Assembly: GCA_944392965.1 (NCBI GenBank) | Contig: CALXYM010000005.1 | Location: 62,001-126,000 of the forward strand | Reading direction: 5' to 3' | From: an uncultured Spirochaetaceae bacterium | GTDB taxonomy: Bacteria > Spirochaetota > Spirochaetia > Sphaerochaetales > Sphaerochaetaceae | Length of the DNA stretch: 64,000 nt | In this document: positions 11,069-45,431 of the stretch, in pieces | Layout of the letters: each line of letters opens with the position of its first letter | Position numbering within the stretch: position 1 is the stretch's first letter | The notes under the pieces: generated by a model | What the model saw: the letters and a program-made list of their open reading frames with translations, nothing else | Database searches by the model: none | Told to the model about the DNA's origin: nothing | Made by a program: the position numbers and the translations under genes

Positions 11069-11248
11069 AATTGACAGGAACATATAGGAATGTTGTTCTT
11101 GAAAGAAAGCATTTTCTTGATGGACGATATTAGCCCCTGATAAAAAACAAGATTAATCCGTAAATATCCTTCCCACAGGTTCCGCATGTCATGTTGCCAT
11201 GGCAAGGACATCCTATGCGCTCATCAGGAAGAATGTTGCATGACAGCT

Positions 11249-12559
11249 TCAGGCCATGATGAAAAGGCAGGGGTCAAGGGAGAACCTCCAGCCGCGTACA
11301 ATGTCTATGCTTCCTTCCTCGCATTCCTCCCTCCCTTCCTCATCCATAGTGATGATCAAGCCTCTTCTCAAGCCGGAAGCGGACATCGCACTTCTCAGTC
11401 CTCTGATTTCACGCTCCCTGTTCCCATCAAGCCTGCATGACACCTGGATCAAGGCTTTGGGAGTCATAGAGATGTCTGATACGATGAAATCCGTCTCGTA
11501 TCCATCCTCATCGCGGTAATAGTTGATCCTCATGCCAGTCCTGAGGAGTGCGGAGAACACGGCATGTTCGAGGACAACACCCTCCGACCAGCCAAATTCG
11601 CGGAAAAGGACGGCCATCTGATGATCAACGGCATACAGCTTCCTCGGATTCCTTTTCTTCTCTGTTTCCGTGCCATATATCTCCACCTCTTCCATGAACT
11701 TGGTGTCCTTGATCATCTCTATATATGAGGAAATCAGCTCTGCTGATGTCGGGAAGCCTTCGCTTTTCAGCATATGGACGAGGCGTGCGATGGTATATGG
11801 GCTTCCACTGTTCTTCACCAATCGGAAAAGGAGACGTCTTAGTAGCGTCCCCTTCGTCACCTCGAACCTGTCTATGATGTCCCTCGAATATACAAGGTCG
11901 AAATAGTCACCCAGCACCATTTGTCTGAGGCTCACGTCGTCGACTGTGGCAAGTGCAGGATATGAGCCCCTTTCCAGATACGAGACATACAGTTTAGAAA
12001 GGCTATTCTGCATGGATGCGGAGTAGACGCCTCCTTCAGGGACCTCCGTACCGTTGAAACAGCAGAATTCCCGGAACGAGAGCGGATAGAACGGATGGTT
12101 GAGCCCTCTGCCCCTCATCTCGTCAGCTATGTCCACGGACAGGTATTTCGCAGAAGAGCCCGTGAGTACCACATGGCAGGGATGACGGTCCATCAGCACG
12201 GAGACACCCTGTCCCCATCCTTCTATGTTCTGCACCTCATCAAATAGGAAACGTACATCCGCATCGTTCTGAAATTCAGGGTACAACTCGAAATACGCCT
12301 TCTCAACAAGAGGTATCGTCAGGCCCTCCGTGCTTTCGAAGAAGTTCATGTAGCATATCTTCTCTTCTGGCAACCCATTGTCGACAAGCATCCTCGCATG
12401 GCTTCTGAGAAAGGAAGTCTTGCCAGAGCGCCTCGCTCCCACGATTATCACAGCCATGCCTGGAAGCTCCTTGAAACTGAAATCCCTCCGGACATATTTT
12501 TTTGTAAATACATACTCCCTGTTTGAAAGAATCTTCTCCTGAATCGACCTGATGTCCAT
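11249..12559 (-). CDS. AAA-type ATPase with DUF4143-like C-terminal domain (copy 2)
   Basis: Length is 436 aa. The P-loop is VGARRSGKT (about residues 39-47) and Walker B is VRFLFDEVQN. VLTGSSAKYL and RGRGLNHPFYPLSF follow. The C-terminal region ends in a nuclease-like segment with YETDFIVSD. It belongs to the same broad family as the ATPases at 7960 and 44274 but is a distant relative of both, not a duplicate. The frame is open far upstream to 12805, but the ATG at 12557-12559 has GGAGGC 5 nt before it and is the natural start. A striking palindrome (12581-12614) lies just upstream. The gene follows an antitoxin gene and a truncated toxin. Confidence 0.83.
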   Translation of the reverse strand: MDIRSIQEKILSNREYVFTKKYVRRDFSFKELPGMAVIIVGARRSGKTSFLRSHARMLVDNGLPEEKICYMNFFESTEGLTIPLVEKAYFELYPEFQNDADVRFLFDEVQNIEGWGQGVSVLMDRHPCHVVLTGSSAKYLSVDIADEMRGRGLNHPFYPLSFREFCCFNGTEVPEGGVYSASMQNSLSKLYVSYLERGSYPALATVDDVSLRQMVLGDYFDLVYSRDIIDRFEVTKGTLLRRLLFRLVKNSGSPYTIARLVHMLKSEGFPTSAELISSYIEMIKDTKFMEEVEIYGTETEKKRNPRKLYAVDHQMAVLFREFGWSEGVVLEHAVFSALLRTGMRINYYRDEDGYETDFIVSDISMTPKALIQVSCRLDGNREREIRGLRSAMSASGLRRGLIITMDEEGREECEEGSIDIVRGWRFSLDPCLFIMA

Positions 12560-12580
12560 AATGCCTCCATTCTTCAACAA

Positions 12581-12614
12581 AATTTTAACGAATATTCCAA
12601 TATTCGTCAAAATT
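12581..12614 (-). promoter_or_regulatory. Long palindrome at the ATPase promoter
   Basis: ACGAATATT-CC-AATATTCGT (12588-12607) is a perfect 9-bp inverted repeat, extended by AATTTT/AAAATT across a single mismatch on each side. A related TGATGAATAT half-site follows near 12620. The position, 20-55 nt before the ATG, suits an operator. Confidence 0.6.
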
Positions 12615-12688
12615 ATTTTGATGAATATGCTATGAAAGGTGCAAAGCCTGGTTGGAATTCCGTATGCAGTAGCATTATGACTGTCAAA

Positions 12689-12789
12689 CTGGAATCTCCG
12701 AAGGATACAGACTGAAGTATGTTGTATGCCTTGCGTCCAGGAGAAAGCATGGCAGAAAACAGGACATTGGTATCTAAAACAACGTTCAC
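12689..12789 (-). pseudogene. Truncated PIN toxin (remnant of a second toxin-antitoxin pair)
   Basis: From the GTG at 12787-12789 the first ~98 nt match the toxin gene at 9772 almost base for base (VVLDTNVLFSAMLSPGRKAYN). A one-base deletion and then complete loss of similarity follow near 12689. About three quarters of the toxin, including the later acidic residues, are missing. The ATPase gene and its promoter now occupy that place. Confidence 0.85.
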
Positions 12790-13058
12790 GCTTTCCTCGC
12801 GGCATTTATAGCTTCATCAATTTCCTCATTAGACATGGAGACGTTCTTACTTGCACTGTTCCTCATCCTCTCCATCGCGGCTATCGTCTTGGCTGGTCTG
12901 AGTGCGCGGACGGTCTCTACAAACATTCCTTCAGGAATGCCCACCATCAGGGCATACGGCTTGCCGTTATTCGTTATGACAACATCATTGTTCTTTGAAA
13001 GATTTTCCCAAATCGATTTCGTGTTTGTCCTCAATTCCCTTGCAGTATAGAATTGCAA
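12786..13058 (-). CDS. Phd/YefM-type antitoxin, orphan second copy
   Basis: A 90-residue near-copy of the antitoxin at 9769-10041 (FYTARELRTNTKSIWENL, then DVVITNNGKPYALMVGI). The frame is intact but its start is damaged. Where copy 1 has GGAGGATAATATGG, copy 2 reads GTGGATAATTGC, so only a TTG start and a weaker ribosome binding site remain. Its toxin partner is truncated. It could still act as an anti-toxin against the other copy or as a repressor, or it may be decaying. The GTGA junction to the toxin remnant is preserved. Confidence 0.7.
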   Translation of the reverse strand: MQFYTARELRTNTKSIWENLSKNNDVVITNNGKPYALMVGIPEGMFVETVRALRPAKTIAAMERMRNSASKNVSMSNEEIDEAINAARKA

Positions 13059-13119
13059 TTATCCACATTGACGATACAACCAATTTATAATACTTCACAC
13101 AAAATACATAATTCATCTA

Positions 13120-13150
13120 TTGAGCTGGAGTGAACTTTAAGGAGTATTTT
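13120..13150 (+). promoter_or_regulatory. MerR-type promoter with 19-bp spacer
   Basis: TTGAGC (13120-13125) and TATTTT (13145-13150) are separated by 19 bp, the overlong spacer typical of MerR-controlled promoters. The spacer carries GGAGTGAACTTTAAGG, close to the inverted repeat bound by NmlR/AdhR-like MerR proteins. It points at the MerR gene at 13239, suggesting autoregulation. Confidence 0.7.
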
Positions 13151-13182
13151 CCTTTCTAGCAGGGGAAAGGAGAAAACCATCC

Positions 13183-13242
13183 ATGGCCTCATACACACTA
13201 CCCCTCCTTTCTTCCTGCGCTCTTCAAAGGAGTATGGGATGA
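13183..13242 (+). CDS. Possible leader peptide (19 aa) before the MerR gene
   Basis: An ATG at 13183 follows AAAGGAG with 8-nt spacing and opens a 19-codon frame, MASYTLPLLSSCALQRSMG. Its TGA overlaps the ATG of the MerR gene (ATGA). It lies just downstream of the MerR-type promoter. It may be a coupled leader peptide or the stub of a deleted target gene. There is no homology evidence. Confidence 0.35.
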   Translation: MASYTLPLLSSCALQRSMG

Positions 13243-13589
13243 CAATAAAGGATGTATCAGAGAAATACAATGTAAGCCAGGCTACGCTCAGGTATTATGA
13301 GAAAGCCGGCATAATCCCCCCTGTAACACGAAAGAACGGAATAAGGGACTATCAGGAAAAGGATGAGCATGCGGTGGAACTGGTACTCTGCATGAGGAAA
13401 GCAGGCCTCCCGATAGAAAGCATCTCACGTTATGTCGCCCTTAAGCAGGAGGGGGAAGTGACCATAAAAGAACGGCTTTCCATATTACAGGGAGAGAGAG
13501 AAGCTCTTATCGCAAAAAAAGAGGAGATCGAAGGTTTTATAAACCGACTTAATCATAAGATAAGTCTTTTCAAGGAGAAAATTGATTAA
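13239..13589 (+). CDS. MerR family transcriptional regulator
   Basis: A 116-residue cytoplasmic regulator. The N-terminal winged helix is clear: TIKDVSEKYNVSQATLRYYEKAGIIPP, with MRKAGLPIESISRYV continuing the MerR fold. A C-terminal dimer coiled coil (about residues 75-115) follows. No extra effector domain is present and no cysteine metal site is obvious in the coiled coil, so it is probably of the small AdhR/NmlR-like class. The start has GGAGTATGGG before the ATG. A promoter with a 19-bp spacer lies 89 nt upstream and a strong terminator follows. The likely target is its own promoter; any further target is unknown. Confidence 0.87.
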   Translation: MTIKDVSEKYNVSQATLRYYEKAGIIPPVTRKNGIRDYQEKDEHAVELVLCMRKAGLPIESISRYVALKQEGEVTIKERLSILQGEREALIAKKEEIEGFINRLNHKISLFKEKID

Positions 13590-13634
13590 AAATAGGCATA
13601 CTGCTCTTTTCGAGCTTTGTAGTTTTTCCTTTTT

Positions 13635-13667
13635 GCATAGCCTGTCTTCTCAGGCTATGCTTTTTTT
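13635..13667 (+). terminator. Strong terminator after the MerR gene
   Basis: A perfect 10-bp stem (GCATAGCCTG at 13635-13644, CAGGCTATGC at 13651-13660) is followed by seven T. It separates the MerR gene from the ABC exporter. Confidence 0.9.
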
Positions 13668-13732
13668 CACTCAACTGGAAGAGTAAATTTCATAACTATG
13701 TGTAATAAGGAGAAAACTCCACATTTAAAATG

Positions 13733-13795
13733 TTGACAAAGAAGGGATTTCCTCTTAAATACAATACGGAATCTAAGTGTTTTTACTTAGGATTC
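13733..13795 (+). promoter_or_regulatory. Promoter and operator of the ABC exporter operon
   Basis: A consensus TTGACA (13733-13738) is followed by TAAATA at a 17-bp spacing or TACAAT (13760-13765) at 21 bp. Just downstream, GAATCTAAGT (13769-13778) and ACTTAGGATTC (13785-13795) form an inverted repeat with one unpaired base, near the expected transcript start. This fits a repressor site, for example for a MarR-type protein. Confidence 0.55.
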
Positions 13796-13814
13796 TAAAT
13801 TAGGTGGTAAAAAA

Positions 13815-15542
13815 ATGATAAAAAAATTAGCAAGATCAATACGGGAATATAAGCAATCATCTATCGCAACCCCGATCGTCGTTGCATGCGAAGTTGTGAT
13901 GGAAGTACTCATCCCCTACTTCATGGCACAGATAATAGACATAGGTCTGAGCCAAAGTGACATGAGCTATACGGTGAGACTCAGCATCATACTGATAATC
14001 GCCGCAATCACTTCCCTGATTTTCGGGGCTCTCAGCGGTAAACTCGCCGCTCAGGCCTCCGCAGGTTTTGCAAAGAACCTGAGGGGAGATATATTTCATC
14101 ACATCCAGACGTTCTCATTCTCGAACATCGACAAGTTCAAGGTATCGAGTCTCGTTACGAGGATGACGACCGATGTGACGAACGTACAGAACGCATACCA
14201 GATGATAATAAGAATTCTCGTAAGAGGCCCTCTGATGCTTATTGCAGCCCTTGTCATGGCATCCAGGATAAACCGACGCCTCTCACTCATATTCCTCATC
14301 GCTATACCCATCCTCGGATTTGCGCTCTTCTTCATTGCACTAAAAGCGCACCCCTATTTTGAGAAGGTGTTCAGGACATACGATAAGCTTAATAACACCG
14401 TTCAGGAGAACGTGAGGGCGATAAGGGTCGTCAAGTCATTCGTAAGGGCCGATTATGAGGAGAAGAAGTTCATGGAGACGAGCAACGAGGTCTATGACAG
14501 GTTCAAGAAAGCGGAGAAGATAGTCATCTTCAACAGTCCCGTCATGCAGAGCGTCATCTACATATCGATTCTACTCATCTCCTATAACTCGGGTAAGATG
14601 ATAGTCTCAGGTTCCATGACCACGGGAGAGCTAATGAGCATGATAATCTATGCCACTCAGATACTCTCCTCTCTTATGATGCTGTCAATGGTATTTGTAA
14701 TGATCATCATGGCCCGTAGCAGCGCTGAACGTATCATAGAGGTCCTAGAAAAGGAAAGCGACATACAGAGCCCTGTAGATGGAAGGGACTATGTCGAAGA
14801 TGGATCAATAGATTTTAAGAATGTGACGTTCAGTTACGTCAAGGATCCTGAGAAAGCGGCTTTGAAGGATATAAACCTTCATATAGAAAGTGGAGAGACC
14901 GTTGGAATAATCGGTGCCACGGGAAGTGCCAAGACGACTCTCGTGCAGCTTATTGCAAGGCTCTATGATGCGACAGAGGGATGCGTTAAGGTCGGTGGAC
15001 ATGATGTGAAGGAATACGATCTTGATGCACTGAGGAGGGATGTGGCGATGGTACTACAGAAGAACGTCCTCTTCTCAGGTACGATAAAAGAGAATCTCAA
15101 ATGGGGAGATGAGAAGGCAAGTGACGCGGAGATAGAGTATTACTCGAAGCTCAGTCAGGCCGATTCCTTCATCTCAACATTCAAGGACAAGTACGACAGC
15201 TATATTGAACAGGGAGGAACTAACGTCTCAGGAGGCCAGAAGCAGAGGATATGCATAGCACGGGCACTGCTGAGGAAACCTAAGATCCTCATTCTTGATG
15301 ATTCGACAAGTGCGGTGGATACGAAGACCGATGCTCTCATACGCAAGGCTTTCAAGGAAGAAATTCCCCAGACGACCAAGATAATAATTGCACAGAGGAT
15401 CTTAAGCATAGAAGATGCGGACAGGATCATCGTAATGGATAAGGGCAAGGTGGTAGCATTCGATACCCCAGAAAATCTCCTTACAAGTTGCGATATTTAC
15501 CGTGAGCTTTATGATACTCAGAAGAAGGGAGCACTAGCATGA
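13815..15542 (+). CDS. ABC exporter half-transporter, subunit with degenerate ATP site
   Basis: A 575-residue fusion of six transmembrane helices (about residues 15-310) and an ATPase domain (about 335-575). Walker A is GATGSAKTT, the signature is NVSGGQKQR, and Walker B is ILILDDSTSAVD, with Asp where the catalytic Glu normally sits. The switch His is replaced by Gln (IIIAQRI). These changes mark the non-hydrolysing half of a heterodimeric exporter of the TM287/288 or BmrCD type. Its partner is the next gene, overlapping by ATGA. The complex should export drugs, lipids or peptides across the inner membrane; the substrate is unknown. The start has AGGTGG upstream. Confidence 0.92.
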   Translation: MIKKLARSIREYKQSSIATPIVVACEVVMEVLIPYFMAQIIDIGLSQSDMSYTVRLSIILIIAAITSLIFGALSGKLAAQASAGFAKNLRGDIFHHIQTFSFSNIDKFKVSSLVTRMTTDVTNVQNAYQMIIRILVRGPLMLIAALVMASRINRRLSLIFLIAIPILGFALFFIALKAHPYFEKVFRTYDKLNNTVQENVRAIRVVKSFVRADYEEKKFMETSNEVYDRFKKAEKIVIFNSPVMQSVIYISILLISYNSGKMIVSGSMTTGELMSMIIYATQILSSLMMLSMVFVMIIMARSSAERIIEVLEKESDIQSPVDGRDYVEDGSIDFKNVTFSYVKDPEKAALKDINLHIESGETVGIIGATGSAKTTLVQLIARLYDATEGCVKVGGHDVKEYDLDALRRDVAMVLQKNVLFSGTIKENLKWGDEKASDAEIEYYSKLSQADSFISTFKDKYDSYIEQGGTNVSGGQKQRICIARALLRKPKILILDDSTSAVDTKTDALIRKAFKEEIPQTTKIIIAQRILSIEDADRIIVMDKGKVVAFDTPENLLTSCDIYRELYDTQKKGALA

Positions 15543-33027: not shown

Positions 33028-33245
33028 ACATAATTTAGATTTTGTTAAATAAATTCATAAATTTTATAATACTTTTATATTTTTATAGCACAAAAGAAGA
33101 GAATACCATTACTAACTACTTTCAGAACAATTATTGATGAGTAAAGAGACAATAATCATACCTGGCATTATCGGTATTTATTGACATAGCACAATTTCTA
33201 ATGTGCACATGGGATAGAGGTATTAGACAAAAATAAGAATAAACC

Positions 33246-33274
33246 TTGATTAACCATCTGACTTTCTATACAAT
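33246..33274 (+). promoter_or_regulatory. Candidate promoter of the lipoprotein operon
   Basis: TTGATT (33246-33251), a 17-bp spacer and TACAAT (33269-33274), about 60 nt before the first lipoprotein start. Confidence 0.5.
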
Positions 33275-33333: not shown

Positions 33334-36300
33334 ATGTTTTTAAAAATAACACTGGTACTGCTACTATTTCTGTTCACATCTTGTCCTACCTCTCCGCCTT
33401 TGGATCCTTCCGATCAGTATGAGGCATATATGATACCAAGCTCACCCCAACAGGTGAGTGCCACGAACGGATATGATGAATCTATAACACTCACATGGCA
33501 AGCCGTCGAGGAAGCCACGAGCTATCAGGTATGGGGAATAGAGAGTGAGAACTATGGTGCCTCAAGAGGGGAAACATCCTCAAAAGGTAATGAAAGCTAC
33601 AACACCCTTTTAGAGAGGGGATTCAGATTTATCGAGGATACGGATACGACCAGTTTCTCCCTTGATGCAATGAGGGGAGACAGTTATGTGTTTTCAATCA
33701 TCGCAATGCGCAACATAGGAGAAAGCGCGTCCTCAAGCACAAAGCAGATGCTCTATTCCAATCCAAGCGAGTATGTAGAAGGGTCAATTGCAGGAGATGT
33801 GAGGCTTTCAGGTATCGCCAATTCAAATTCCACAGTCCTATATTATTCTGTCGACGGGATAGAAAGCATCCTCACCGGGGAAAATCTCTACATTCCAGTA
33901 TTCTCAGTTGAATACAAGGCATCGAGTGAAAACGAATGGAGAAAAGCCGTCATAGCCGACAGTAATGATGGCTTCACCCGTGATTTCATCTGTACACTCA
34001 TGTCATCAGATAACCAGCTCACGCCAAACACCTATTATGATTTCAGGGTCAACATGAGCGTGGAGAGTGAGGATGGCGTCATACTGGCATCAAGGACGAG
34101 TGACGCGTTTACCCTCCTGACAGATGTAAATCTTCTGCCGGAGGCTATTGAGAAGATATCCGTCACTAGGGACAGGAGTGAATGCATAGAGATATCATTC
34201 AGTGTTCCAGATATCCCACAGAGCGATGAGCAGGCATATTCCAGTTATTTCAGAATAGAAAGAAGTGAAAACGGTAACGTTTTCGACGTGGTATTTGAGG
34301 GAAAAGCGGACTCAGAGGATCTGACATGTTCTGATGGCATATATACATATGCAGATTATACGGCAGAGGAGAATACATCTTACCGTTATCGGGTAGTGAA
34401 CGGATTCATAAATGAGGAGGGTATCATACTCTGGCAAAGCAACAGTGCCGATGGCAGCCTAAGCGAGGAGGCATGGAGGACCTGGAGAGCCCGTAATGCC
34501 AACGTGGAGATTGAAAAAACGGTTGAGAATGAGCAAGGAATCGCAATGACAAGAAACCTTGTATTCTCATTCCTCTATGAGAAGGATATCCCTGAGGGAA
34601 TGGAATTCAGGCTCGTCACAAACAGATGGACAGAAGATGCGAACAAGACGACGAAAGAAGAGGAGTCAATCAGCCCTGAATCAGGAGAGGAAGGAACTTA
34701 CTTATTCAGAAAGAGCATCCACACCCTTGATGAGAACACATATCAGACATACAGCTTCTCTCTCAACAGCTATCAGAATGATAATCTCATCGCAAGCATA
34801 CCATTTGACTCAGAAGAACTCATAGATCTTGGAAAGAGCCTTTCTCCAAGCATCATCAAGACCTTCTCTGCCTCTACGAACCATGTCGGAAAGGTCTGCC
34901 TCTCATGGCAGGTGGAGAGTAACGTCTGGAATGAGACGTACACCTTCTATGTCGATGAGGTGGAATACGAGAAAAATGTGGAGATAGAGAAGTACGGGAA
35001 TCAGAGATACACATACCTTGAGACAGAGGATGATCAGGAACACGAGTACAGAATCGAGGTGGAAGGGAATATCGGGAACGTACATGCCTTTCAGATATAT
35101 CCGCATGCAGTGAGAGGAAGAACACTCCTTACCCCGACAGGACTTATCGCCTCTGATGGAGAGAGGACTGACGGCATTACTGTCACATTCGACAATCTGG
35201 AGGATGATGAGATCATCTATGAGCTTGAATACTCCGAGGATGATGGAGATAGCTGGAATGGCCTTGATGCGAAGGCTGATGGTACATTCTTCCTTTCTGC
35301 AAAGAACAGCGAAGAGGACGGCAGAACCATACTCTTCCGCCTCAGAGCTTCAAACAAAAATGATGTGGATAACCACACACAGTGGAGCGACATGGAAGAG
35401 GGAAGTGTATTCGGTCCGGGAAAGATGGAACTTGAGGCAAGCTACGAAAGTTCTCCCACCTCAATAGAACTGACATGGAATGCTGTCACAGGAGCCGACT
35501 TCTACTACATCGAGCGCGATGGGATAAGACTTCCGGGAAAAGTCAGAGGCACATCATACAGCGATGATGGCGTTACAGAGCTTACCCCGACGGAAACAGA
35601 GAGAGAACCTCTTTCAAAAGAATTCAGCTATACTGTAATCCCTGTGAAGGACGGAGATGAGGAAGTCCTTGCCATAGGGGCTGAAAGCGTTGGCAAGCTC
35701 TTCTCCCCTCCTATAAACATCAGGTCAAGCAAAGGAGAGCTTGCAAACTACGTGCATATCACATGGGATGACGGGAACAGCAGTAACAGCAATACCAGTT
35801 ACATCGTAAAGAGATACACTCTTGATGAGGATGGAAACGAGGTTGATGTTAAGACCTTCCAGAGGACCAGGAACCCCTTCTTTGACGACACACACCCGGA
35901 TGGAAAATCTTATTATACGGTTCAGGCAGTTGAGATGGAAAAAGATATCACATCCCTGTTCCAAAACGGATTTAATGTGGAAAAGAACATATTCAAGGAA
36001 GAGGAGGATGCGAACCTAGGCTATCCATTGGCCTCCATCGGAGCCCCCGTTATAAGAACTGAAATCGATGAGAATGGATATCTGAAGCCATACGTTCAGA
36101 TCACATGGGAACGTGTAGATGGAGCGGACAAATACAGGATAGAACCTGTGATAAACAATAAGGATAGTGGTACGGCAAGGGAAGATGAGCCTCTCGTACT
36201 CGACATCACGGGACTTGAGTACAATCCGGAAAGCACAGAGCTGATAACCAACGGATACAGCCCGGACCAGGCGGGATATCTCGCATACGACCCAGTAATG

Positions 36301-36936
36301 AAGGAATACACGTATAATGACAATAGCGGCACAATGAGGACTACTGTGAATATCAGCGGGTACAACATGACGGCCGTACATGGAGGAGAGGAATCTGAGA
36401 GTGCACTCACAAGATCCACAGTATACAGGATGCCAAGATTAGATGAGATGATCTCCCTGGCAAATGAGATGATTTACAAAGCCCTCCATGATGCCGATGA
36501 ATCAAGTGTCATAAACGGAGACTGGCTCCACTACGGCACCTCTGACGTGCATTATAACTATCCATCTGATGAAAACCCGAAGTTGGCGATACGTGTTCCT
36601 GCCTCGCTCATAACCTTCAAAGAAACGGGAGATATCACATTCACCTCATACGATGAAGGCCCTGGTCAGATATCAGGAAGTTTCATCAGTACCACAGCAG
36701 AGGGTAATGTCGCAGACAGTGTCAATCCACTCTACGAGCTTCAAGAAGGAAGCATTACCATAAGCATTCCATCAATAACCACGGCAACTGGAGAGATTGG
36801 TAATTTCAAAGCAGCTGACATCACCTACCCTGCGATCGCAGTCAATTCAATAAATGAGACGGATACTTACTCTGTCCTGAGAGATGGAGAGACGAAGAGT
36901 GTTAATGACTCATCTCATATATCGAGGCCTTTCTAG
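33334..36936 (+). CDS. Large FN3-repeat lipoprotein
   Basis: 1200 residues. A lipoprotein signal ends at FTSC (Cys 17). The mature chain is built of about eight fibronectin type III-like domains. Recurrent cores are ESITLTWQAVEEATSYQVW (near residue 50), KVCLSWQVES (near 515), SIELTWNAVTGADFYYIER (near 715) and VQITWERVDGADKYRIEP (near 920). The last ~160 residues form a different module (MPRLDEMISLANEMI, then a beta-rich end) that has a counterpart in the next gene. It is expected to be surface or periplasmic and to bind host or cell-wall partners; this is inference. The SD is GGAAGG. First gene of a six-gene operon. Confidence 0.82.
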   Translation: MFLKITLVLLLFLFTSCPTSPPLDPSDQYEAYMIPSSPQQVSATNGYDESITLTWQAVEEATSYQVWGIESENYGASRGETSSKGNESYNTLLERGFRFIEDTDTTSFSLDAMRGDSYVFSIIAMRNIGESASSSTKQMLYSNPSEYVEGSIAGDVRLSGIANSNSTVLYYSVDGIESILTGENLYIPVFSVEYKASSENEWRKAVIADSNDGFTRDFICTLMSSDNQLTPNTYYDFRVNMSVESEDGVILASRTSDAFTLLTDVNLLPEAIEKISVTRDRSECIEISFSVPDIPQSDEQAYSSYFRIERSENGNVFDVVFEGKADSEDLTCSDGIYTYADYTAEENTSYRYRVVNGFINEEGIILWQSNSADGSLSEEAWRTWRARNANVEIEKTVENEQGIAMTRNLVFSFLYEKDIPEGMEFRLVTNRWTEDANKTTKEEESISPESGEEGTYLFRKSIHTLDENTYQTYSFSLNSYQNDNLIASIPFDSEELIDLGKSLSPSIIKTFSASTNHVGKVCLSWQVESNVWNETYTFYVDEVEYEKNVEIEKYGNQRYTYLETEDDQEHEYRIEVEGNIGNVHAFQIYPHAVRGRTLLTPTGLIASDGERTDGITVTFDNLEDDEIIYELEYSEDDGDSWNGLDAKADGTFFLSAKNSEEDGRTILFRLRASNKNDVDNHTQWSDMEEGSVFGPGKMELEASYESSPTSIELTWNAVTGADFYYIERDGIRLPGKVRGTSYSDDGVTELTPTETEREPLSKEFSYTVIPVKDGDEEVLAIGAESVGKLFSPPINIRSSKGELANYVHITWDDGNSSNSNTSYIVKRYTLDEDGNEVDVKTFQRTRNPFFDDTHPDGKSYYTVQAVEMEKDITSLFQNGFNVEKNIFKEEEDANLGYPLASIGAPVIRTEIDENGYLKPYVQITWERVDGADKYRIEPVINNKDSGTAREDEPLVLDITGLEYNPESTELITNGYSPDQAGYLAYDPVMKEYTYNDNSGTMRTTVNISGYNMTAVHGGEESESALTRSTVYRMPRLDEMISLANEMIYKALHDADESSVINGDWLHYGTSDVHYNYPSDENPKLAIRVPASLITFKETGDITFTSYDEGPGQISGSFISTTAEGNVADSVNPLYELQEGSITISIPSITTATGEIGNFKAADITYPAIAVNSINETDTYSVLRDGETKSVNDSSHISRPF

Positions 36937-36945
36937 GAGAGAAGG

Positions 36946-39144
36946 ATGAAGAAGATACTGTATTTACTGACGTTTACTCTCCTCTTACTCTCTTTTACAT
37001 CCTGTAACTGGGATGTCTGGGGAGGAGAATTCATAGACTACGGAGAAGGAAGTGCGAATGCAAATGCTTCAATGTTCTTCACAGGAACAAAACCTGAGCA
37101 CATTAAAGTGACGGCATCACGCTTTTCTGATGAGATTAGAATATCATGGGACCGCGTACTCGGAGCCGATTACTATGAGATATTCCGCAGTGAATACTCA
37201 GAAAGCAATGATATTGAAAATCTTTCCTGGACAAGGCTCACGGATACAAGCGTCAACTCCACATCATATACGGATACGAACGTAGAGGACGGTGTAGTAT
37301 ACGCATACAGGGTAAGGGCACGCTCATTCCTTTACAGGGATGTTCTCGGCAATTATTCGGATACAGGATACGGTTGGACTCTCTCTCCCCCACAGCAGGT
37401 TGAAGCCTCCCAGGGGGAGAGTACGACGTCAATCACTGTGACATGGAGCTCCGTTAAATCGGTGAACGGTTATATGATCTACTGGAGTGACACGGGCTAT
37501 GACGGAACATGGAATCCAGTCACGACAGTCCTGCCTAATACGGCTACGAAATATCAGTTCCGACCTGCTTCGGCCTACTACGGCAAGACGCTCTATTTCT
37601 ATGTTACGGCAGTCTCCAGTGGGAACAATGAAAGTGATAGCAGCATAAGACGACAGGGATATACCCATGTTGAAGGAGCACCTGAAGCACCATCTAATCT
37701 CACGGCAACAAAAGGTGAGAGCACCGACTCCATAACACTCTCATGGACTGCGATGTCCCCCTCTGACGGTTCTTATGACTGGGAGATATACAGAAGATCT
37801 GGAAACGAGAGTGAAACGCTCATCTATTCCACGGTAAGAGGAGATGATCCTCCTGAGGAGGAGAACGGCATGATGAGCTATGTGGATGAGAGCAACCTCT
37901 CCGCAGGTGTCGTATACACCTATACGATTATGGCAATCGGTGTAATCGAGAACAGTGATGGCTCCTCACAGACTGTAAACGGATCCCCCTCCTCTGCTGA
38001 AGGATACCTGCTCTCCCCTCCCACAACCATCACGGAAAAGAGGATAAATGACACAAATAACGGTTTCGTATTCACCTTCCTCTCTCCTTTAGGAGATGAT
38101 GGACTGACTGATTTGAAGTACAACGTCTATGCGAAGGTAAGTGCCTCAGACAGCTTCTCCTCTTTGCCGATCATCACAGAAGATCTGGACGGAAGAGAGA
38201 GTTACACGATAGAAATTCCATATGAAAGCGGAGGATACGAGTACTTCGACATTAGAGTCCAGAGAGGGGGCTTGGAAAGCATAGGATACTCATCTATCGG
38301 AGGAGATCTTGCTGTAGCCCGTCCTGTGAAAGCAAAAGGATACTCGGCAAGTGATAACCTGTATCTTGATTCTATGACAGTACAGGATGGCCAGTATCCT
38401 GTGCTTCTTCAGATGGACAAGGATGATAACGCTACATCATACACGCTACGGGTATGGAAGAATCAGCCATCAGGAGTAGATACAACCGCGGCATTTGAAT
38501 ATGAAGTTACTCCAGAAGTAGATGAGGAAGGAGGAACGTATCGGATTGAAATTGAAAAAGAGGCAACTCCTGAGGTCGGATCCACATACTATTATGCGGT
38601 AAGAGGAAAGGACAGGCTCGGGAGAGAGGGAGAATGGAGCGATATCGATTCAGGCTATCCTGCAATCACGGGAGCTGAGCTTATCAAGCACATGCAGGTG
38701 TTCTGTCTTAAGCCGTGGGAATACCTGAACACGACGTTGCTTGGAAGTGAGCTGACAGAGAAATGGAGAGGCAGTACAATCTACTCCCTCGTCTCCCAGG
38801 CTGGAATGGGAAGCCTTGGAAGTGCTGAGGAAAGCGGGAATGCATCGGGAAGGATGACATACAATGCCTCCTACTCTCCTCCAGCTTCAGGCAGCGTTTC
38901 TTTCTCTTATACGAATTTCGGAGAGAAGTCATATATGCAGACGAATGGAAACTACAACATGAACGTGAGCCTCTCTGGTTCCGGCAGCTGTTCAGGGGGT
39001 ATCACGATAAGCGGGATGTATCCTGCGACGATCGGATTCACGAACATCTCCGTATCAAACCAGAAATTCGTTGGAACATATACGGTCACCCAGAGGAACG
39101 GACACACAAGTGAGGAAGTCTCACCAGATCAGGAGGTGAGATAA
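36946..39144 (+). CDS. FN3-repeat lipoprotein
   Basis: 732 residues with a lipobox SFTSC (Cys 20). Roughly five FN3-like domains follow; the cores are IRISWDRVLGADYYEIFRS (near 70), SITVTWSSVKSVNGYMIYW (near 165) and SITLSWTAMSPSDGSYDWE (near 260). The C-terminal ~140 residues (LIKHMQVFCLKPWEYL, then Gly/Ser-rich beta strands SVSFSYTNFGE and GGITISGMYP) form a separate module comparable in place to that of the preceding protein. It starts 9 nt after the first gene with a GGAGAGAAGG site. The two look like diverged paralogues. Confidence 0.82.
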   Translation: MKKILYLLTFTLLLLSFTSCNWDVWGGEFIDYGEGSANANASMFFTGTKPEHIKVTASRFSDEIRISWDRVLGADYYEIFRSEYSESNDIENLSWTRLTDTSVNSTSYTDTNVEDGVVYAYRVRARSFLYRDVLGNYSDTGYGWTLSPPQQVEASQGESTTSITVTWSSVKSVNGYMIYWSDTGYDGTWNPVTTVLPNTATKYQFRPASAYYGKTLYFYVTAVSSGNNESDSSIRRQGYTHVEGAPEAPSNLTATKGESTDSITLSWTAMSPSDGSYDWEIYRRSGNESETLIYSTVRGDDPPEEENGMMSYVDESNLSAGVVYTYTIMAIGVIENSDGSSQTVNGSPSSAEGYLLSPPTTITEKRINDTNNGFVFTFLSPLGDDGLTDLKYNVYAKVSASDSFSSLPIITEDLDGRESYTIEIPYESGGYEYFDIRVQRGGLESIGYSSIGGDLAVARPVKAKGYSASDNLYLDSMTVQDGQYPVLLQMDKDDNATSYTLRVWKNQPSGVDTTAAFEYEVTPEVDEEGGTYRIEIEKEATPEVGSTYYYAVRGKDRLGREGEWSDIDSGYPAITGAELIKHMQVFCLKPWEYLNTTLLGSELTEKWRGSTIYSLVSQAGMGSLGSAEESGNASGRMTYNASYSPPASGSVSFSYTNFGEKSYMQTNGNYNMNVSLSGSGSCSGGITISGMYPATIGFTNISVSNQKFVGTYTVTQRNGHTSEEVSPDQEVR

Positions 39145-39145
39145 G

Positions 39146-39634
39146 ATGAAGAAGATATCCATGGTATTACTGGTCATCCTCACATTGGCCCTCACTTCAT
39201 GTGATCTAGGAACGATTCCAAATCCGATTACGGGGACATACATGCTCCGCGAAGAAGGAACTACGAACTTCTTCAGAGCAGCATTCTCCTTAAACGAGGA
39301 CGGAAGTTTCGATTACATCGAAATAGTTGAGAACAGCAAGAGAATCAAAATGAGCGGTACTTACACTTATAGTCTCACATTCTTTGATTTCGAGAGAGCG
39401 AATGGGAGCATATCCTTTACCCTGTTCTATCCCGATGAGATACTTAAGAGCGGGATTCAGAACCTGATAATCAAGCATGGAAACACCTCCTTCCTTTTTG
39501 ACTGGGAAGCGGACAAGAACACGGGGCCCAGATCCCTTACTCTCGTCGTGAACCCCTCAGACAGGAGTCAGAATTATGAACTGGTGTATTCAGGAAGGCC
39601 AGGCAAGCTTCCTTCCCCCGAGGAGGAAGTATGA
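39146..39634 (+). CDS. Small lipoprotein
   Basis: 162 residues with a lipobox ALTSC (Cys 19). The mature part looks like one small beta-barrel or lipocalin-like domain: ITGTYMLREEGTTNFFRAAF, EDGSFDYIEI and MSGTYTYSLTFFDFERANG. No family is recognised. It is separated by one base from the gene before, whose end carries its AGGAGGTGAG site, and it overlaps the next gene by ATGA. It is tightly coupled within the surface operon. Confidence 0.78.
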   Translation: MKKISMVLLVILTLALTSCDLGTIPNPITGTYMLREEGTTNFFRAAFSLNEDGSFDYIEIVENSKRIKMSGTYTYSLTFFDFERANGSISFTLFYPDEILKSGIQNLIIKHGNTSFLFDWEADKNTGPRSLTLVVNPSDRSQNYELVYSGRPGKLPSPEEEV

Positions 39635-40281
39635 AGAGACTGGCAATATTACTTACCTCTCTGTTCATTCTCTTTCCACTCTCTGCATATGAGACTGATG
39701 GAAATGTGAATGTGAGACTCAGCGATAACATGATACGGCTCATCAATGAGAGCATTGAAAAACAGGATACGCAGGAAGAAGAGATAAGCTGGTGGCAGAG
39801 GGAGATCGAGAAGGCCGATATCAGCTACGATCTCTATCTCAGGATGCCTGTTACATATAATACCACTACGATAGGAATCGGAGGAGGATTCAACATCGGG
39901 GTAAAGACAGCCTCATTCAAGTTCGAACTCTATACTCTAGGTGATTATTTCCTCTCTCCCCATGGCAGTAACGGGGGCGTTCAATCGCTGGATTTCATGA
40001 TAGAACCGGGGATGATGTTTGCATGGAAGATACTCGAGGTGTGGAGGACGAGAACGTATATCGCACTCGATATAGGATACTTCATGCAGTTTGCCTCCCT
40101 TCCATGGTATCCAGAAGAGATATTCCTCGCGGAAAACGGCGTGATGCTCCGGCCTAAGGTCATGACGGAGATCGTCATAGGAAAACACTATGATATGTCG
40201 ATCGGAATCTTCTATCAGTTCCCTATCTATCCCGACTATTCAGGATACAGGGGATTTGGAGTCATGTTCGCAGTTCTTTAA
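39631..40281 (+). CDS. Predicted outer-membrane beta-barrel protein
   Basis: 216 residues with a cleavable signal (MKRLAILLTSLFILFPLSAY). The first ~60 mature residues are charged and helical (NMIRLINESIEKQDTQEEE). The rest alternates in barrel style: TTTIGIGGGFNIGVKTASF, FKFELYTLGDYFL, RTYIALDIGYFMQF and HYDMSIGIFYQFPIY. The end is GYRGFGVMFAVL. It could be the outer-membrane partner or secretion pore for the lipoproteins of this operon. That role is inferred only from position. Confidence 0.72.
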   Translation: MKRLAILLTSLFILFPLSAYETDGNVNVRLSDNMIRLINESIEKQDTQEEEISWWQREIEKADISYDLYLRMPVTYNTTTIGIGGGFNIGVKTASFKFELYTLGDYFLSPHGSNGGVQSLDFMIEPGMMFAWKILEVWRTRTYIALDIGYFMQFASLPWYPEEIFLAENGVMLRPKVMTEIVIGKHYDMSIGIFYQFPIYPDYSGYRGFGVMFAVL

Positions 40282-40290
40282 GGAGGGAGA

Positions 40291-41127
40291 ATGAGAAAAA
40301 TATTATTCGCATTACTCTTATCGTGCCTTCTCATCTCCTGTTCAAATGAAGGAGTAAAGCCTGAGGAGAGGGAGACGACATTCTCTTTCTCTCTTAGCGG
40401 AGAGACATCCGTTGATGAGGTAATCATAGACGACATAAGGCAAAATGCACCCGATAACCTTACATTCACCATGAGAACTGACGGCTTTCCCATCATGTTC
40501 ACCTTTCTCAAAGATGGCATCCTCATAGCACAGAACGAGGTAGAAGGATACAAGGATGGAGGGATGAACAGCTATACCGTCGATCCTGATGACTTCAAGA
40601 TTCATGATCTTCTCGCATATGAGATTGGAGGGATCGTATACGCATCATGGAAGAGCGTGGAGGCAGCCACATCATATGCCGTCAATCATGGAAGCAAGGA
40701 GGAAGTAATAACTGAATACAATGCCATCGAGATTGAAGGAAGAGAGGGAGATGAGATTACAGTAGTTCCTCTTTTCTCTTCTTTTAGAGGTGAAGAATGT
40801 TCGACCATTGTCAAAGATGGAAGGAACGACATCCATATAACAGTGAATCCACCGAGTATTGATGGGAATATCCCAATCGAGATATCAGAAGAGGATATCA
40901 CCCTCGAATACGGGGGTTCGATAAGTTTCTACCTGTCTTTAGAGGACGAGGCCTACGACGACATCTGGTGGACTCTTAATAGAAAGGAAATAGGACACGG
41001 GATGTCCATAACAATAGACTGGGACAATTCGGCTCTTCGGCTTGGAGGAAAGGAGGAGTCTCTCACTCTTCATCTGGAAAAGATGGGGAAGGAATATTCA
41101 AAAACAATAACGTTCGTTTGTAAATAG
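40291..41127 (+). CDS. Lipoprotein with FN3/Ig-like domains
   Basis: 278 residues with a lipobox LLISC (Cys 17). The mature protein has a beta-rich N-terminal part (FSFSLSGETSVDEVII). A short FN3-like core follows (GIVYASWKSVEAATSYAVN, near residue 115), then a C-terminal Ig-like part (EISEEDITLEYGGSISFYLS) ending with a KTITFVCK strand. It starts 10 nt after the barrel protein with AAGGAGGGAG upstream. It shares the style and probably the location of its neighbours. Confidence 0.77.
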   Translation: MRKILFALLLSCLLISCSNEGVKPEERETTFSFSLSGETSVDEVIIDDIRQNAPDNLTFTMRTDGFPIMFTFLKDGILIAQNEVEGYKDGGMNSYTVDPDDFKIHDLLAYEIGGIVYASWKSVEAATSYAVNHGSKEEVITEYNAIEIEGREGDEITVVPLFSSFRGEECSTIVKDGRNDIHITVNPPSIDGNIPIEISEEDITLEYGGSISFYLSLEDEAYDDIWWTLNRKEIGHGMSITIDWDNSALRLGGKEESLTLHLEKMGKEYSKTITFVCK

Positions 41128-41138
41128 GGGTAAGAAAG

Positions 41139-43985
41139 ATGAGGAAAAAACTATTCATCGCATACGTGATCGCAGCAGTATTGCTTGCATCATGTGCTCA
41201 AGAAGATCCCATAGGTACGGGAAGAACCGATATGACGATACGCACGGCAAAAGCCACGTCAAGGACGATCATTCCCGTAGGCCCTGAGATCGTAAGTTAT
41301 ACGGTCTCTCTTGACGGGGAAAGCGAGGATTATGAAGGCTCTTTCACGCTGGAAGAGAATATAACATTCTCCAATATTCTCGTAGGCCCATACACCGTCA
41401 CCGTCGAGGCCTTTGACAATCAGAAGATTAAAGTCGCAGAAGGAAGCGAGATCACGAGAGTGACTGCTGACGGAGAGAATAGCGTCACGATTAATCTTGA
41501 CTGGCTTGAAGAGGGAACGGGAAAGATGAGCGTTGACATCTCATGGGAAGGGAGAAGCATGAATGGATCAGGGCCATTTGAGGAGGCACTTGAGAATAAG
41601 AGTCTCGGGTTCAGGGCCATGAGGAGTGATGGAGGCGCATATGTAGAGGATATCAAATGGGCAGAGGAAGAGGACTTTACAAACAAGAAGTTCACCTTCC
41701 AGGCCGATAACCTTGAAAAGACCGATGGAACAAGTATCTATTTTGAGATCTACACGATGATCGACGGTGAGCCTCAGGTGATCGCAGAGACGTTCTATAC
41801 GGTGATACAGGTTCTACCGAACCTCACATCGAAACCGGATCAGAACGAGAATAACAATTTCAAGATCACAGATGAAAGCATCATAGAGTATATCAAGAAC
41901 GTGAGAAAGACATCCGTAACAGCCTCAATAAATGAAAAAGACCCCAAAGGTGCCATAGACATCGCATGGGAATATCCTAAGCTCTCAAACGGGGAATACA
42001 GCGGAACACTGACAGTCACACTTCTTGACAGTGAAGGTGCCGTAATTTCCACTGTTTACAAAGAATATACCCAGAATGATAAGACAGGAACTGAAACATT
42101 CACAGGCCTTACGCCAAAAAAGTCGTACAAGATCACTTTCCAGAATAAGAGCAGTATGGGCTATTCCACTACCCTCCTTGCACTTGAGAACATAAGGACA
42201 AAAGTCGTCGTGACGGAAATAGCCATCATAAGTAGTATAAAGGATACCTACACGATGGGAGACTCCATCACCATAGAAGCGGAGGTCAAGCCGGAAGAAG
42301 CGACACAGAAGGATTATACGATAGAGGTATCTCCTTCTGACGGTGTGGAGATAAATAATGAGGATAAGAGTGTGAGATTCACGAAATCAGGGGATTTTAC
42401 AATCAAAGTAAAACCTGTTGATGCAAGTTCCACAGCGACAGCGAAAAAGAAAGTGAGAATACTCTTAAGTACTCCCTCTTCATTTGAATCATCCCTCAGT
42501 GAAGATGGAATACTCCTCACATGGGCAAAGGTTGAAAGCGCCTCAGGTTACCTGATAACAAAGACAATCAAGGAAATAAGCAAAACAGAGACAATTGAGA
42601 TAGACTCTAATGAGACTCTTAAATATCTGGATAAGGGTACTTATGCAGGAATGACACACTCTTATACCATCCAAGCAGTAAGTGAGGATGGCAATCACAA
42701 TTCCGCAATCAGTGGAACCACGGAAGAGACTATCAAAGCAAGTGACATAACAATCAAACCACCTAAAGACATCGAAAACATCACCCTACCCCCTATTGAT
42801 TTTGGTGGAAAATATCTTGTTGAGTACACGGAAAAAGAAAAACATCAGAGCATATCCATCTCCCTTTCAGGAGCCATAGAGAATGCGAAAAAATACGAAT
42901 GGCTTCTGAATGGAGAAGAGATAGCATCTTCTGAAAGTTTCACCTCAGACGTCCAGAACATCACCATTGACAACACCAATGAGAATCTCAAGATATCGAG
43001 TTTTGAGAATGAGAACACCCTTACCCTCGTCGTTACTGTAAATGGAAATAGATATAACATATCAGGTTCCTTCTATGTAATCTCCGAGGAGCTCGAGAGT
43101 ATTTCCATCCTCTCAGAGGGTACGGTACCAACTGAGGTACGCTACGGCAGCCCGATAACACTTACTGCCTCATTCACCCCATCACCTGTGGACATCGGCT
43201 ATTCTGATAATCCTCAGGTAAAATGGGAGATCGTAAGCCAGAGTGATGAGAATGTTGCAGAACTGAGCCAGGAAAATGACATAACCACACTAACAGCAAA
43301 ACGAGATGGAACTGTCACGATAAGAGCCACGGCAGTCGCAACAGGTCTTACTGATGAGGTAACGGTGAAGTCGTATATACCGGCGACGGATATAGAGCTA
43401 TCAACTCCAGATCATAATGTTATCGTAAAACAGAAAGACGGAGTAACTGTTACAAATCTGTATTCAGATGAAACATATCCACTAAGTGCTTCCGCTGTTG
43501 CCGCCAATGGAGAGAAGGCTTCATCCTCCCTCCTTTGGTCAACCAATAACAGTGATGTGTTGGAAGTAGATTCATCAACTGGTAGTCTTACCGCAAAAAA
43601 TGCAGGGAAAGCAACTATCTCTGTAGAAATAGATGGAATAAAGAAAGAATGGGCAATCACTGTTCTTGATATTGATGTTAAATCAGGAGAAACTCCACTT
43701 ACTGATAGCTCTATCAGCGTTCCTGGATGGGCATGGTCAGATCCTGTAAATGTTCAGCTTGTTTTTACAAATAATAATACAGATGGATACAGCTGTGTCT
43801 GGGGCTTGGAAGGAGATGAGAATAAGAAAAAAGATGACTCTTTCGGGCACAATTTTGTCATATCAGAAAATAACTTTACTGCCAGTTTGAATAGAGGAAG
43901 CGATGGCTATAGCTATGCAGTAGGAGCATATTTAAAATTGAACGGGACAACAATAGCAGTAGCAAGTTTCACAGCTACCCCATAA
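41139..43985 (+). CDS. Large lipoprotein with FN3 and bacterial Ig-like (Big2) domains
   Basis: 948 residues with a lipobox LLASC (Cys 19). The N-terminal part has carbohydrate-binding-like beta repeats (YEGSFTLEENITFSNILVG). The middle includes an FN3 core (GILLTWAKVESASGYLITK, near 460). Later parts carry Big2-type signatures such as LSTPDHNVIVKQKDG, LLWSTNNSDVLEVDSSTG and SLTAKNAGKATISVEIDG (near 790-840). Such domains are frequent in adhesins. It is the last gene of the operon and a terminator hairpin follows. Confidence 0.8.
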   Translation: MRKKLFIAYVIAAVLLASCAQEDPIGTGRTDMTIRTAKATSRTIIPVGPEIVSYTVSLDGESEDYEGSFTLEENITFSNILVGPYTVTVEAFDNQKIKVAEGSEITRVTADGENSVTINLDWLEEGTGKMSVDISWEGRSMNGSGPFEEALENKSLGFRAMRSDGGAYVEDIKWAEEEDFTNKKFTFQADNLEKTDGTSIYFEIYTMIDGEPQVIAETFYTVIQVLPNLTSKPDQNENNNFKITDESIIEYIKNVRKTSVTASINEKDPKGAIDIAWEYPKLSNGEYSGTLTVTLLDSEGAVISTVYKEYTQNDKTGTETFTGLTPKKSYKITFQNKSSMGYSTTLLALENIRTKVVVTEIAIISSIKDTYTMGDSITIEAEVKPEEATQKDYTIEVSPSDGVEINNEDKSVRFTKSGDFTIKVKPVDASSTATAKKKVRILLSTPSSFESSLSEDGILLTWAKVESASGYLITKTIKEISKTETIEIDSNETLKYLDKGTYAGMTHSYTIQAVSEDGNHNSAISGTTEETIKASDITIKPPKDIENITLPPIDFGGKYLVEYTEKEKHQSISISLSGAIENAKKYEWLLNGEEIASSESFTSDVQNITIDNTNENLKISSFENENTLTLVVTVNGNRYNISGSFYVISEELESISILSEGTVPTEVRYGSPITLTASFTPSPVDIGYSDNPQVKWEIVSQSDENVAELSQENDITTLTAKRDGTVTIRATAVATGLTDEVTVKSYIPATDIELSTPDHNVIVKQKDGVTVTNLYSDETYPLSASAVAANGEKASSSLLWSTNNSDVLEVDSSTGSLTAKNAGKATISVEIDGIKKEWAITVLDIDVKSGETPLTDSSISVPGWAWSDPVNVQLVFTNNNTDGYSCVWGLEGDENKKKDDSFGHNFVISENNFTASLNRGSDGYSYAVGAYLKLNGTTIAVASFTATP

Positions 43986-44009: not shown

Positions 44010-44048
44010 GGGACAGTGGATATAGAGTCTGCTGTCCCCTTTTATTTT
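44010..44048 (+). terminator. Terminator of the lipoprotein operon
   Basis: GGGACAG (44010-44016) pairs with CTGTCCC (44032-44038), followed by CTTTTATTTT. Confidence 0.75.
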
Positions 44049-44273: not shown

Positions 44274-45431
44274 ATGGAATACATCAAGAGAGTACTGAGA
44301 ATTGAAGATTTACTGGAAGAAAGCTCTCTGTTCCTGTTTGGCCCGAGGATGACAGGAAAGACATCATATATTGAGAACGAAATACAGAGGAAAGCTATTC
44401 TCTCTATTACTTTCCTTGATGGAGATACCCTTGATGCATTCTACCATAATCCTGTCCTCCTAAGATCAATGCTGGCCGGAAAGACAGAAGGTTTTGTGAT
44501 AGTCGATGAAGTCCAGCTCTTTCCCCCTATCCTGCTTGACATCCAGCACATCATGACGCATAACAATATCCAGTTCCTGCTTACGGGTTCCAGTGCAAGG
44601 AAGCTTAAGAAGAGCGGTAACAATCTACTAGGAGGAAGGGCAGGAATCGTATCAATGCACCCTCTTGTATGGAAGGAAATAAGGGACAGGAATCCTGATC
44701 TTGATTCCATTTTCACAACAGGAATGCTTCCTAAGGTGATCCAGTCGAAATCATACCAGATACAGCTTAGGAATTATGTCAGGGGTTATCTCGATAATGA
44801 GATCGCTGCCGGGGGAGAAAGACGGAATATCGGGGTTTTCAGCAGTTTTCTCACTTTTGCAGCTTCTGAGAATACGGAGCTGATGAATTTCTCAAATGTA
44901 TCTAGGGATATCGGTATGTCATCTGATACGATCAAGGAATGATATCAGATACTTGTGGATACTTTTATCGGATACTATCTCAGGCCCTACAGAAAAGGGT
45001 CTAAAAGAATCCCTGTGAACACATCAAAATTCTATTTCTTCGATGTCGGAGTTGCAAGAACCGCAGCTAGAATGCCTGTCCCATCTGAGACCATGACGGA
45101 ATACGGTAAGATGTTTGAGAACTACATCTTCATGGAGCTTAAGGCATACATAGATTACAACATGACGGACGACGAGCTCTATTTCTGGCGCACCCGCGAA
45201 GGATATGAGGTTGATTTCATCATTGAGAATAAGGTGGCTATTGAGGTGAAAACCTCTAAGAACATCACAAAAAAAGATATGAAAGGAATAAGAGCGTTCA
45301 TGGAAGAAAATGCAGTGCGGGAATATATCATCGTATGTAGAGAACTCTTTGAACGTACTACTGAGGATGGGATTAGGATAGTCCCATGGAAGCTTTTTCT
45401 GGATGAGCTCTGGGATGATAAGATAATATAA
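44274..45431 (+). pseudogene. DUF4143-type ATPase interrupted by one stop codon (copy 3)
   Basis: A 385-codon frame with Walker A GPRMTGKTS (about residues 24-32), Walker B FVIVDEVQL, LLTGSSARKL and a C-terminal nuclease-like YEVDFIIENKVAIEVKTSK. A single in-frame TGA (44940-44942) interrupts it at IKE-stop-YQILVD. Relatives of this family have a Trp at this place (a KEWYQIL-type motif), so TGG to TGA is the simplest explanation. Both halves are otherwise intact. The gene may be freshly inactivated, or the base may be a sequencing error. No ribosome binding site is clear. A terminator follows the true stop. Confidence 0.8.

Follow-up and report, generated by a model that had tools for sequence, protein, structure and literature searches.

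Do six contiguous genes in an uncultured, gut-type spirochete, predicted to encode five lipoproteins and one outer-membrane barrel, form a single surface system, and if not, which of them belong together and what might their products build? We approached this question in the window, meaning the whole 64,000-nucleotide stretch of DNA that was analyzed, and by comparison with other genomes of the same class.

Layout of the gene block

All six open reading frames (A to F; Table 1) were confirmed with their ends, on the forward strand between positions 33334 and 43985. The spacing is 9 nt between A and B, 1 nt between B and C, -4 nt between C and D, 9 nt between D and E, and 11 nt between E and F, in agreement with the contiguous six genes and gaps of -4 to +11 nt of the original prediction. 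Its five lipoproteins were also recovered, with a lipobox-type cysteine closing the signal peptide of A (FTSC), B (FTSC), C (LTSC), E (LISC), and F (LASC). The lipobox cysteine is unchanged throughout the 21 aligned homologs of B and the 18 of C. D has a cleavable-type signal peptide that lacks a lipobox cysteine. As for the FN3 and Big2 domains first proposed, Big_2 in F scored above the Pfam cutoff (29.4 versus 22.8 bits), while FN3 was identified in B by AlphaFold with Foldseek and VIA and in A by profile.

Table 1. Features of the gene block (positions in the window)
Feature	Position	Strand	Description
Promoter-like sites upstream of A	33042-33070, 33246-33274	+	Consensus scan
Gene A	33334..36936	+	1200-aa lipoprotein, at least 6 FN3-like modules, fast-evolving C-terminal module
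C-terminal module of A	36406..36933	+	Residues ~1025-1200; homolog alignment
Gene B	36946..39144	+	732-aa lipoprotein, five FN3 domains and C-terminal module; AlphaFold
C-terminal module of B	38671..39141	+	Residues 576-732; AlphaFold, 44-sequence alignment
Gene C	39146..39634	+	162-aa lipoprotein, lipocalin-like sequence pattern
Gene D	39631..40281	+	Predicted eight-stranded outer-membrane beta-barrel of 216 aa; signal peptide lacks a lipobox
Gene E	40291..41127	+	278-aa lipoprotein, accessory
Gene F	41139..43985	+	948-aa Big_2/FN3 lipoprotein, accessory
Intrinsic terminator just 3' of F	44010-44038	+	12-bp stem, 6 G-C pairs, CTTTTATTTT tail (T tract)

To judge from sequence signals, A to F are likely carried on a single transcript, since we found no forward-strand terminator inside the block and there is one immediately after F. 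Promoter-like matches in the region were not above those in shuffled sequence (consensus scan). The flanks are unrelated to the block: DHDPS and other metabolic genes lie on the opposite strand on the 5' side, and the 3' side has an IclR regulator together with a disrupted AAA_14/DUF4143 gene. The AAA_14/DUF4143 ATPase gene (44274-45431, forward strand) is interrupted by an in-frame stop, which leaves two pieces (44274-44942 and 44955-45431), and is probably a decayed copy or the product of a sequencing error; full-length homologs adjoin the cassette described below in two relatives (L051 and L052).

Conservation of the A-B-C-D cassette

Judged by gene order, the coherent unit in evolution is A-B-C-D rather than the whole block. 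Counting the window's own, 56 genomes carry these four genes side by side, all on one strand and in this order; 40 of them (the window's among them) belong to the window's own family, f1, and 16 to a treponeme-like family, f24. The former is probably Sphaerochaetaceae, given the missing flagellin match in the window's own genome, and the latter probably Treponemataceae. A homolog of A stands first in every A-B-C-D cassette, and the internal spacing is mostly a few nucleotides, with an insertion, a gap, or an extra gene between members in 3 of the 56 (L062, L096, and L125). At L096, a transposase-like insertion (12548-14309) interrupts gene A and detaches its 3' end. Homologs of B and D co-occur in genomes of the window's genus, where their surroundings are A-B-C-D side by side, and every one of the 17 loci retrieved for the family's other four genera shows the order. 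The D profile matched 40 of 395 genomes of the class, every one of them in the window's family and from five genera. The profile of the B C-terminal module reached further (73 of 395 genomes, 17 genera), including f24, where the order is identical but the fourth gene, D', is invisible to the D profile. Treponeme-like B proteins are matched by the B profiles at up to 2.8e-77.

Some variation was found around this arrangement. In family f42, one genome carries the genes permuted as C-D-A-B, and two genomes of family f26 have A-B-C, with no D' detected anywhere in either. Two genomes of the window's genus (L058 and L059) read A-B-D, with a C-like gene relocated upstream. The cassette is missing from many otherwise complete relatives. 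The B profile had no match in two complete genomes of 2.8 Mb from another genus, nor, at an E value of 0.001 or better, in a 1.1-Mb single-contig treponeme-like genome (G122, presumably Treponema pallidum or close kin), so that the cassette seems to be absent from these lineages. A flagellar link was discarded, as the window's own genome gave no flagellin match (controls worked), although treponeme-like genomes also carry the cassette.

E and F appear from this comparison as optional neighbors of A-B-C-D. Homologs of E were found only beside the cassettes of the three closest relatives (L041/L044, L042/L045, and L043). Big_2/FN3 lipoproteins of the F type adjoin cassettes more widely (L049, L054, L058, L059, L091, L092, L097, and L100-L104), placed before or after them, divergently or convergently. 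The six-gene system of the original prediction thus did not hold, given the restriction of E to the nearest relatives and the shifting place and strand of F. What did hold is its lipoprotein set with a dedicated barrel: the neighborhood comparison found A-B-C-D not scattered among related genomes but kept together and in order.

Another pair of genes, U and V, recurs beside the cassette in about 12 genomes (among them L041:3117-6199, L054:14159-17475, and L100:9885-12950). U, a lipoprotein of ~600 aa with FN3 domains, has a conserved C-terminal module of its own, and V, of ~420 aa and with a weak FadL match (E value, 0.015), is probably a barrel. V was matched in 42 of the 395 class genomes, and the window's own genome has an incomplete V at the edge of another contig (G000:C19:3-692).

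At equal distances, identity to the window's proteins was 25 to 76% for D, 32 to 89% for the B module, 23 to 76% for C, and 11 to 54% for the C-terminal module of A.

The proteins of the cassette

The FN3 assignment of B is firm. AlphaFold (21 sequences; pLDDT, 86) gave five FN3 domains at residues ~46-571 followed by a separate module, and VIA aligned them to fibronectin 1fnf (Z 14.5 over 344 residues) and to 5z06 (Z 13.2, rmsd 1.6, 92 residues). In A, the Pfam fn3 match (E value, 2e-4) fell below the cutoff, and its FN3-like modules were found with a profile built from the FN3 domains of B, which is profile evidence alone. The C-terminal module of A is far more variable than that of B, with one invariant column in the alignment of its homologs. 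A and B had been suggested to be paralogs with a special C-terminal module; the FN3 array is common to both, whereas their C-terminal modules gave a weak alignment (hhalign 39%, 30 columns) and are doubtfully related, and we dropped the idea of one common module.

Structure prediction and domain search had been proposed for each C-terminal module, and we ran them for that of B. Modeled alone (44 sequences; pLDDT, 92; pTM, 0.86), it is a compact α/β unit with helices followed by a long antiparallel beta-sheet, and its alignment carries the motif KPWE ... GxIxYNA ... GMYPA ... FxGxY. Comparison with the PDB by sequence gave no match, and the fold searches gave no convincing one (best Foldseek E value, 0.24; no VIA hit reaching the significance guide of Z 8). 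The best VIA hit was 2q03 (DUF3224-type; Z 6.0, rmsd 4.2, 105 residues). A known fold was set aside for want of a significant Foldseek or VIA match, which does not make the fold new. The weak structural neighbors of the module, namely DUF3224, nitrobindin, and ORP domains, are beta-barrel binders.

The B module also occurs alone, as a secreted protein of ~165-190 aa in several treponeme-like genomes (L127:7343-7855, L135:1859-2356, L136:4920-5426, L138:4938-5444, and L141:4679-5176). These stand-alone copies make it an autonomous domain, and since they carry a signal peptide without a lipobox, some of them should be periplasmic or secreted. A barrel does not always accompany them, as a barrel-like neighbor was present only at L127 and L138 among the loci examined. 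At L055, a second, truncated B (10584-11507), made up of the last FN3 domain and the C-terminal module, lies immediately downstream of D, which suggests a tandem duplication of the end of B.

C has a sequence pattern, G-x-W/Y ... G-x-Y, that suggests a lipocalin-like barrel, and no Pfam family matched it. Profile comparison showed the C proteins of f1 to be homologous to those of f24 (hhalign 98%; E value, 1.6e-13). A kinship of C with the B module found no support (hhalign 6%).

D shows eight strongly amphipathic segments, with an alternation above that of 2000/2000 shuffles. In a membrane barrel the polar inside should be conserved and the hydrophobic outside variable, and a soluble barrel or sandwich should show the reverse. 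The polar face of D was the more conserved in 8 of 8 hand-set strands. With automatic segments, this was the case in 5 of 7 for D and 9 of 13 for D', in none of 16 for the B module, C, and C' together, and in 6 of 19 for V; because the presumed barrel V shows the pattern in so few segments, the test is supportive and not proof. D is predicted to be an outer-membrane barrel, as originally proposed, with eight strands, and it does not resemble a soluble protein, in contrast to the soluble partners in this test.

Searches of PDB, Pfam, and NCBIfam with D returned matches at chance level only, which led us to reject its membership in a known family. D and 42 relatives matched no OMP_TP0733/OmpW-type model in Pfam or NCBIfam; one D' member had a weak NCBIfam OMP_TP0733 match (E value, 0.002). 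D and D' align poorly (hhalign 62.6%), and we equate them by position, size, and character, sequence homology being unproven. Both have periplasm-side tails that vary in length; the tail is N-terminal among members of the window's family and C-terminal among the treponeme-like ones. The tails can be long, with acidic repeats (VSEDVATVDDFT...) before the barrel or a Lys/Glu-rich stretch after it; long-tailed loci are L107:8620-9780, L103:8737-9807, and L110:5748-7343 in the window's family and L121:7867-9138 among the treponeme-like genomes. The extracellular half of D was not significantly more conserved than the periplasmic half (P = 0.11), and its use as a docking face was not retained.

Possible roles and comparison with known systems

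The retention of the four-gene order across two spirochete families makes it very probable that the products of A-B-C-D form a single machine, so far without a name, that is located in or on the outer membrane. As to what it does, we lean, tentatively and with a confidence that falls just short of even, toward an outer-membrane complex with FN3 stalks that face outward and serve attachment or contact. The three lipoproteins A, B, and C would have the small barrel D as their fixed partner, the conserved core consisting of the B C-terminal module and D, with C as a small third component. The FN3 arrays of these long, rod-like proteins A and B would be the stalks, and the fast-changing C-terminal module of A the variable, exposed working end. 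Possible targets would be host matrix, mucus, glycans, or other cells. E and F would be additional surface proteins that this lineage has joined to the transcript. We infer the physical complex, its outward orientation, and its adhesive role. The gradient of identity, from D and the B module through C to the C-terminal module of A, fits a conserved core with an exposed variable end. The gene order shared by two families, the match of C and B between them, the modeled domains of B, the conserved polar face of D, the variable tails of D and D', and the recurrent FN3/Big_2 lipoprotein neighbors also speak for this reading. Against it stand the A-B-C loci of f26 without a detected D, the stand-alone B modules without lipobox, the unproven homology of D and D', the conservation of the extracellular half of D (P = 0.11), and the 6 of 19 of the V control. 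An eight-stranded barrel is also too narrow for the passage of folded lipoproteins, and FN3 repeats are spacers in many secreted enzymes and hence no proof of adhesion.

The main rival, and a serious one although we consider it rather unlikely, is a scaffold facing the periplasm, with D as membrane anchor and the periplasmic tails as linkers. Many treponemal lipoproteins are periplasmic (PMC7521688), and this counts for the scaffold and against surface exposure. The long, charged or repetitive periplasm-side tails of the D family would suit linkers, the secreted stand-alone B modules agree with a periplasmic site, and the cassette, being present in treponeme-like genomes as well as in one that gave no flagellin match, fits a general envelope role. 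However, the rapid divergence of the A C-terminal module and the frequent company of F-type proteins fit exposure better, Pfam found no peptidoglycan-binding domain, and an essential scaffold should not be lacking, as the cassette is, in many relatives that are otherwise complete.

Improbable, in our estimate, is a receptor for a ligand or nutrient, in which a calycin-like C and the B module would pass a hydrophobic molecule to or through D, the FN3 arrays would be spacers, and U/V would be a second receptor of the same kind. The lipocalin-like pattern of C, the beta-barrel binders among the weak neighbors of the B module, and the position of U/V, with its faint FadL resemblance, beside the cassette in many genomes would all suit such a receptor. 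Every fold match is nevertheless under the significance guide, the channel of an eight-stranded barrel would be narrow at most, and two giant FN3 arrays would be unusual in a transporter.

Still less probable is a device for lipoprotein export analogous to Slam, with D or D' helping A and B across the outer membrane and the B module acting as the signal. Slam substrates have a recognized C-terminal barrel, to which the single compact, conserved C-terminal domain of B would correspond, and one barrel is a near-obligate neighbor of the lipoproteins. But D is much smaller than Slam, has no TPR part, and gave no match to a Slam family; A has no B module, and f26 has no detected D. A chance cluster of unrelated surface genes, suggested by the coming and going of E and F among relatives, is possible for those two genes but refuted for A-B-C-D by an order that two families share across 56 genomes and that a third keeps contiguous in permuted form, and we give it next to no weight as an account of the locus.

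Returning to the shared machine, a broader claim seems possible, if somewhat unlikely: that this is an undescribed spirochetal outer-membrane machine, present in at least two families, in which a small barrel and a new domain, the B module, organize giant FN3 lipoproteins across or on the membrane. It would then represent a spirochete-specific way to position, and perhaps display, lipoproteins. The arrangement of lipoproteins in and on the spirochete outer membrane is poorly understood, and a four-gene lipoprotein-barrel operon of two families, with three parts that lack a family model, is a compact and testable object. If its lipoproteins were surface located in a D-dependent manner, it would bear directly on lipoprotein display. 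The operon also supplies candidate surface antigens of gut-type spirochetes and a new protein domain, which occurs both by itself and in fusion.

How does the cassette compare with known systems? Eight-stranded barrels have been modeled in T. pallidum (TP0126, TP0479, TP0698, and TP0733; PMC8407342). D resembles these single-domain barrels and the OmpW/OprG type in size, signal peptide, and eight amphipathic strands, and differs in being fixed in an operon with three lipoproteins and in having no Pfam, NCBIfam, or PDB match. TP0483, which is annotated with FN3 and counted among the predicted surface-exposed outer-membrane proteins of T. pallidum (PMC10600179), is like A and B an FN3-annotated envelope protein of a spirochete, and its locus number is near that of the barrel TP0479. 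TP0479-TP0483 was rejected as a reduced cassette, genome G122 having no B match.

Big_2 and intimin-type adhesins share with this locus the repeats usual in bacterial surface proteins, Big_2 in F and FN3 in A and B, and differ in that here there are a lipid anchor and a barrel on a separate polypeptide. F does not have the inverse autotransporter layout of intimin and invasin, being a Big_2 lipoprotein without a barrel model match in Pfam. SusC/SusD likewise pairs a lipoprotein with an adjoining barrel, but D is far too small, and Pfam found no TonB-dependent receptor or SusD domain in A to F. Slam exceeds D in barrel size and carries TPR repeats, whereas D has 216 aa and eight strands. The likeness to Slam and its surface lipoproteins (PMC5449769) lies in lipoproteins with a conserved C-terminal module beside an outer-membrane barrel. 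SlipAM (PF04575) had no Pfam match in D at an E value of 0.1 or better, and a Slam search elsewhere in the window's genome gave no match, the control genomes being silent too.

Slam, intimin, and SusC/D thus each fail to match A-B-C-D in their defining features. The original prediction knew of no named system with this order, and our searches agree with this: neither Pfam nor NCBIfam nor the PDB offered a family for C, D, or the B module, and we found no description of an FN3 lipoprotein operon of spirochetes in the open-access library searched. The B module is a domain with no described family in the libraries searched, and A-B-C-D is an unnamed lipoprotein-barrel operon that spans spirochete families and whose function we infer.
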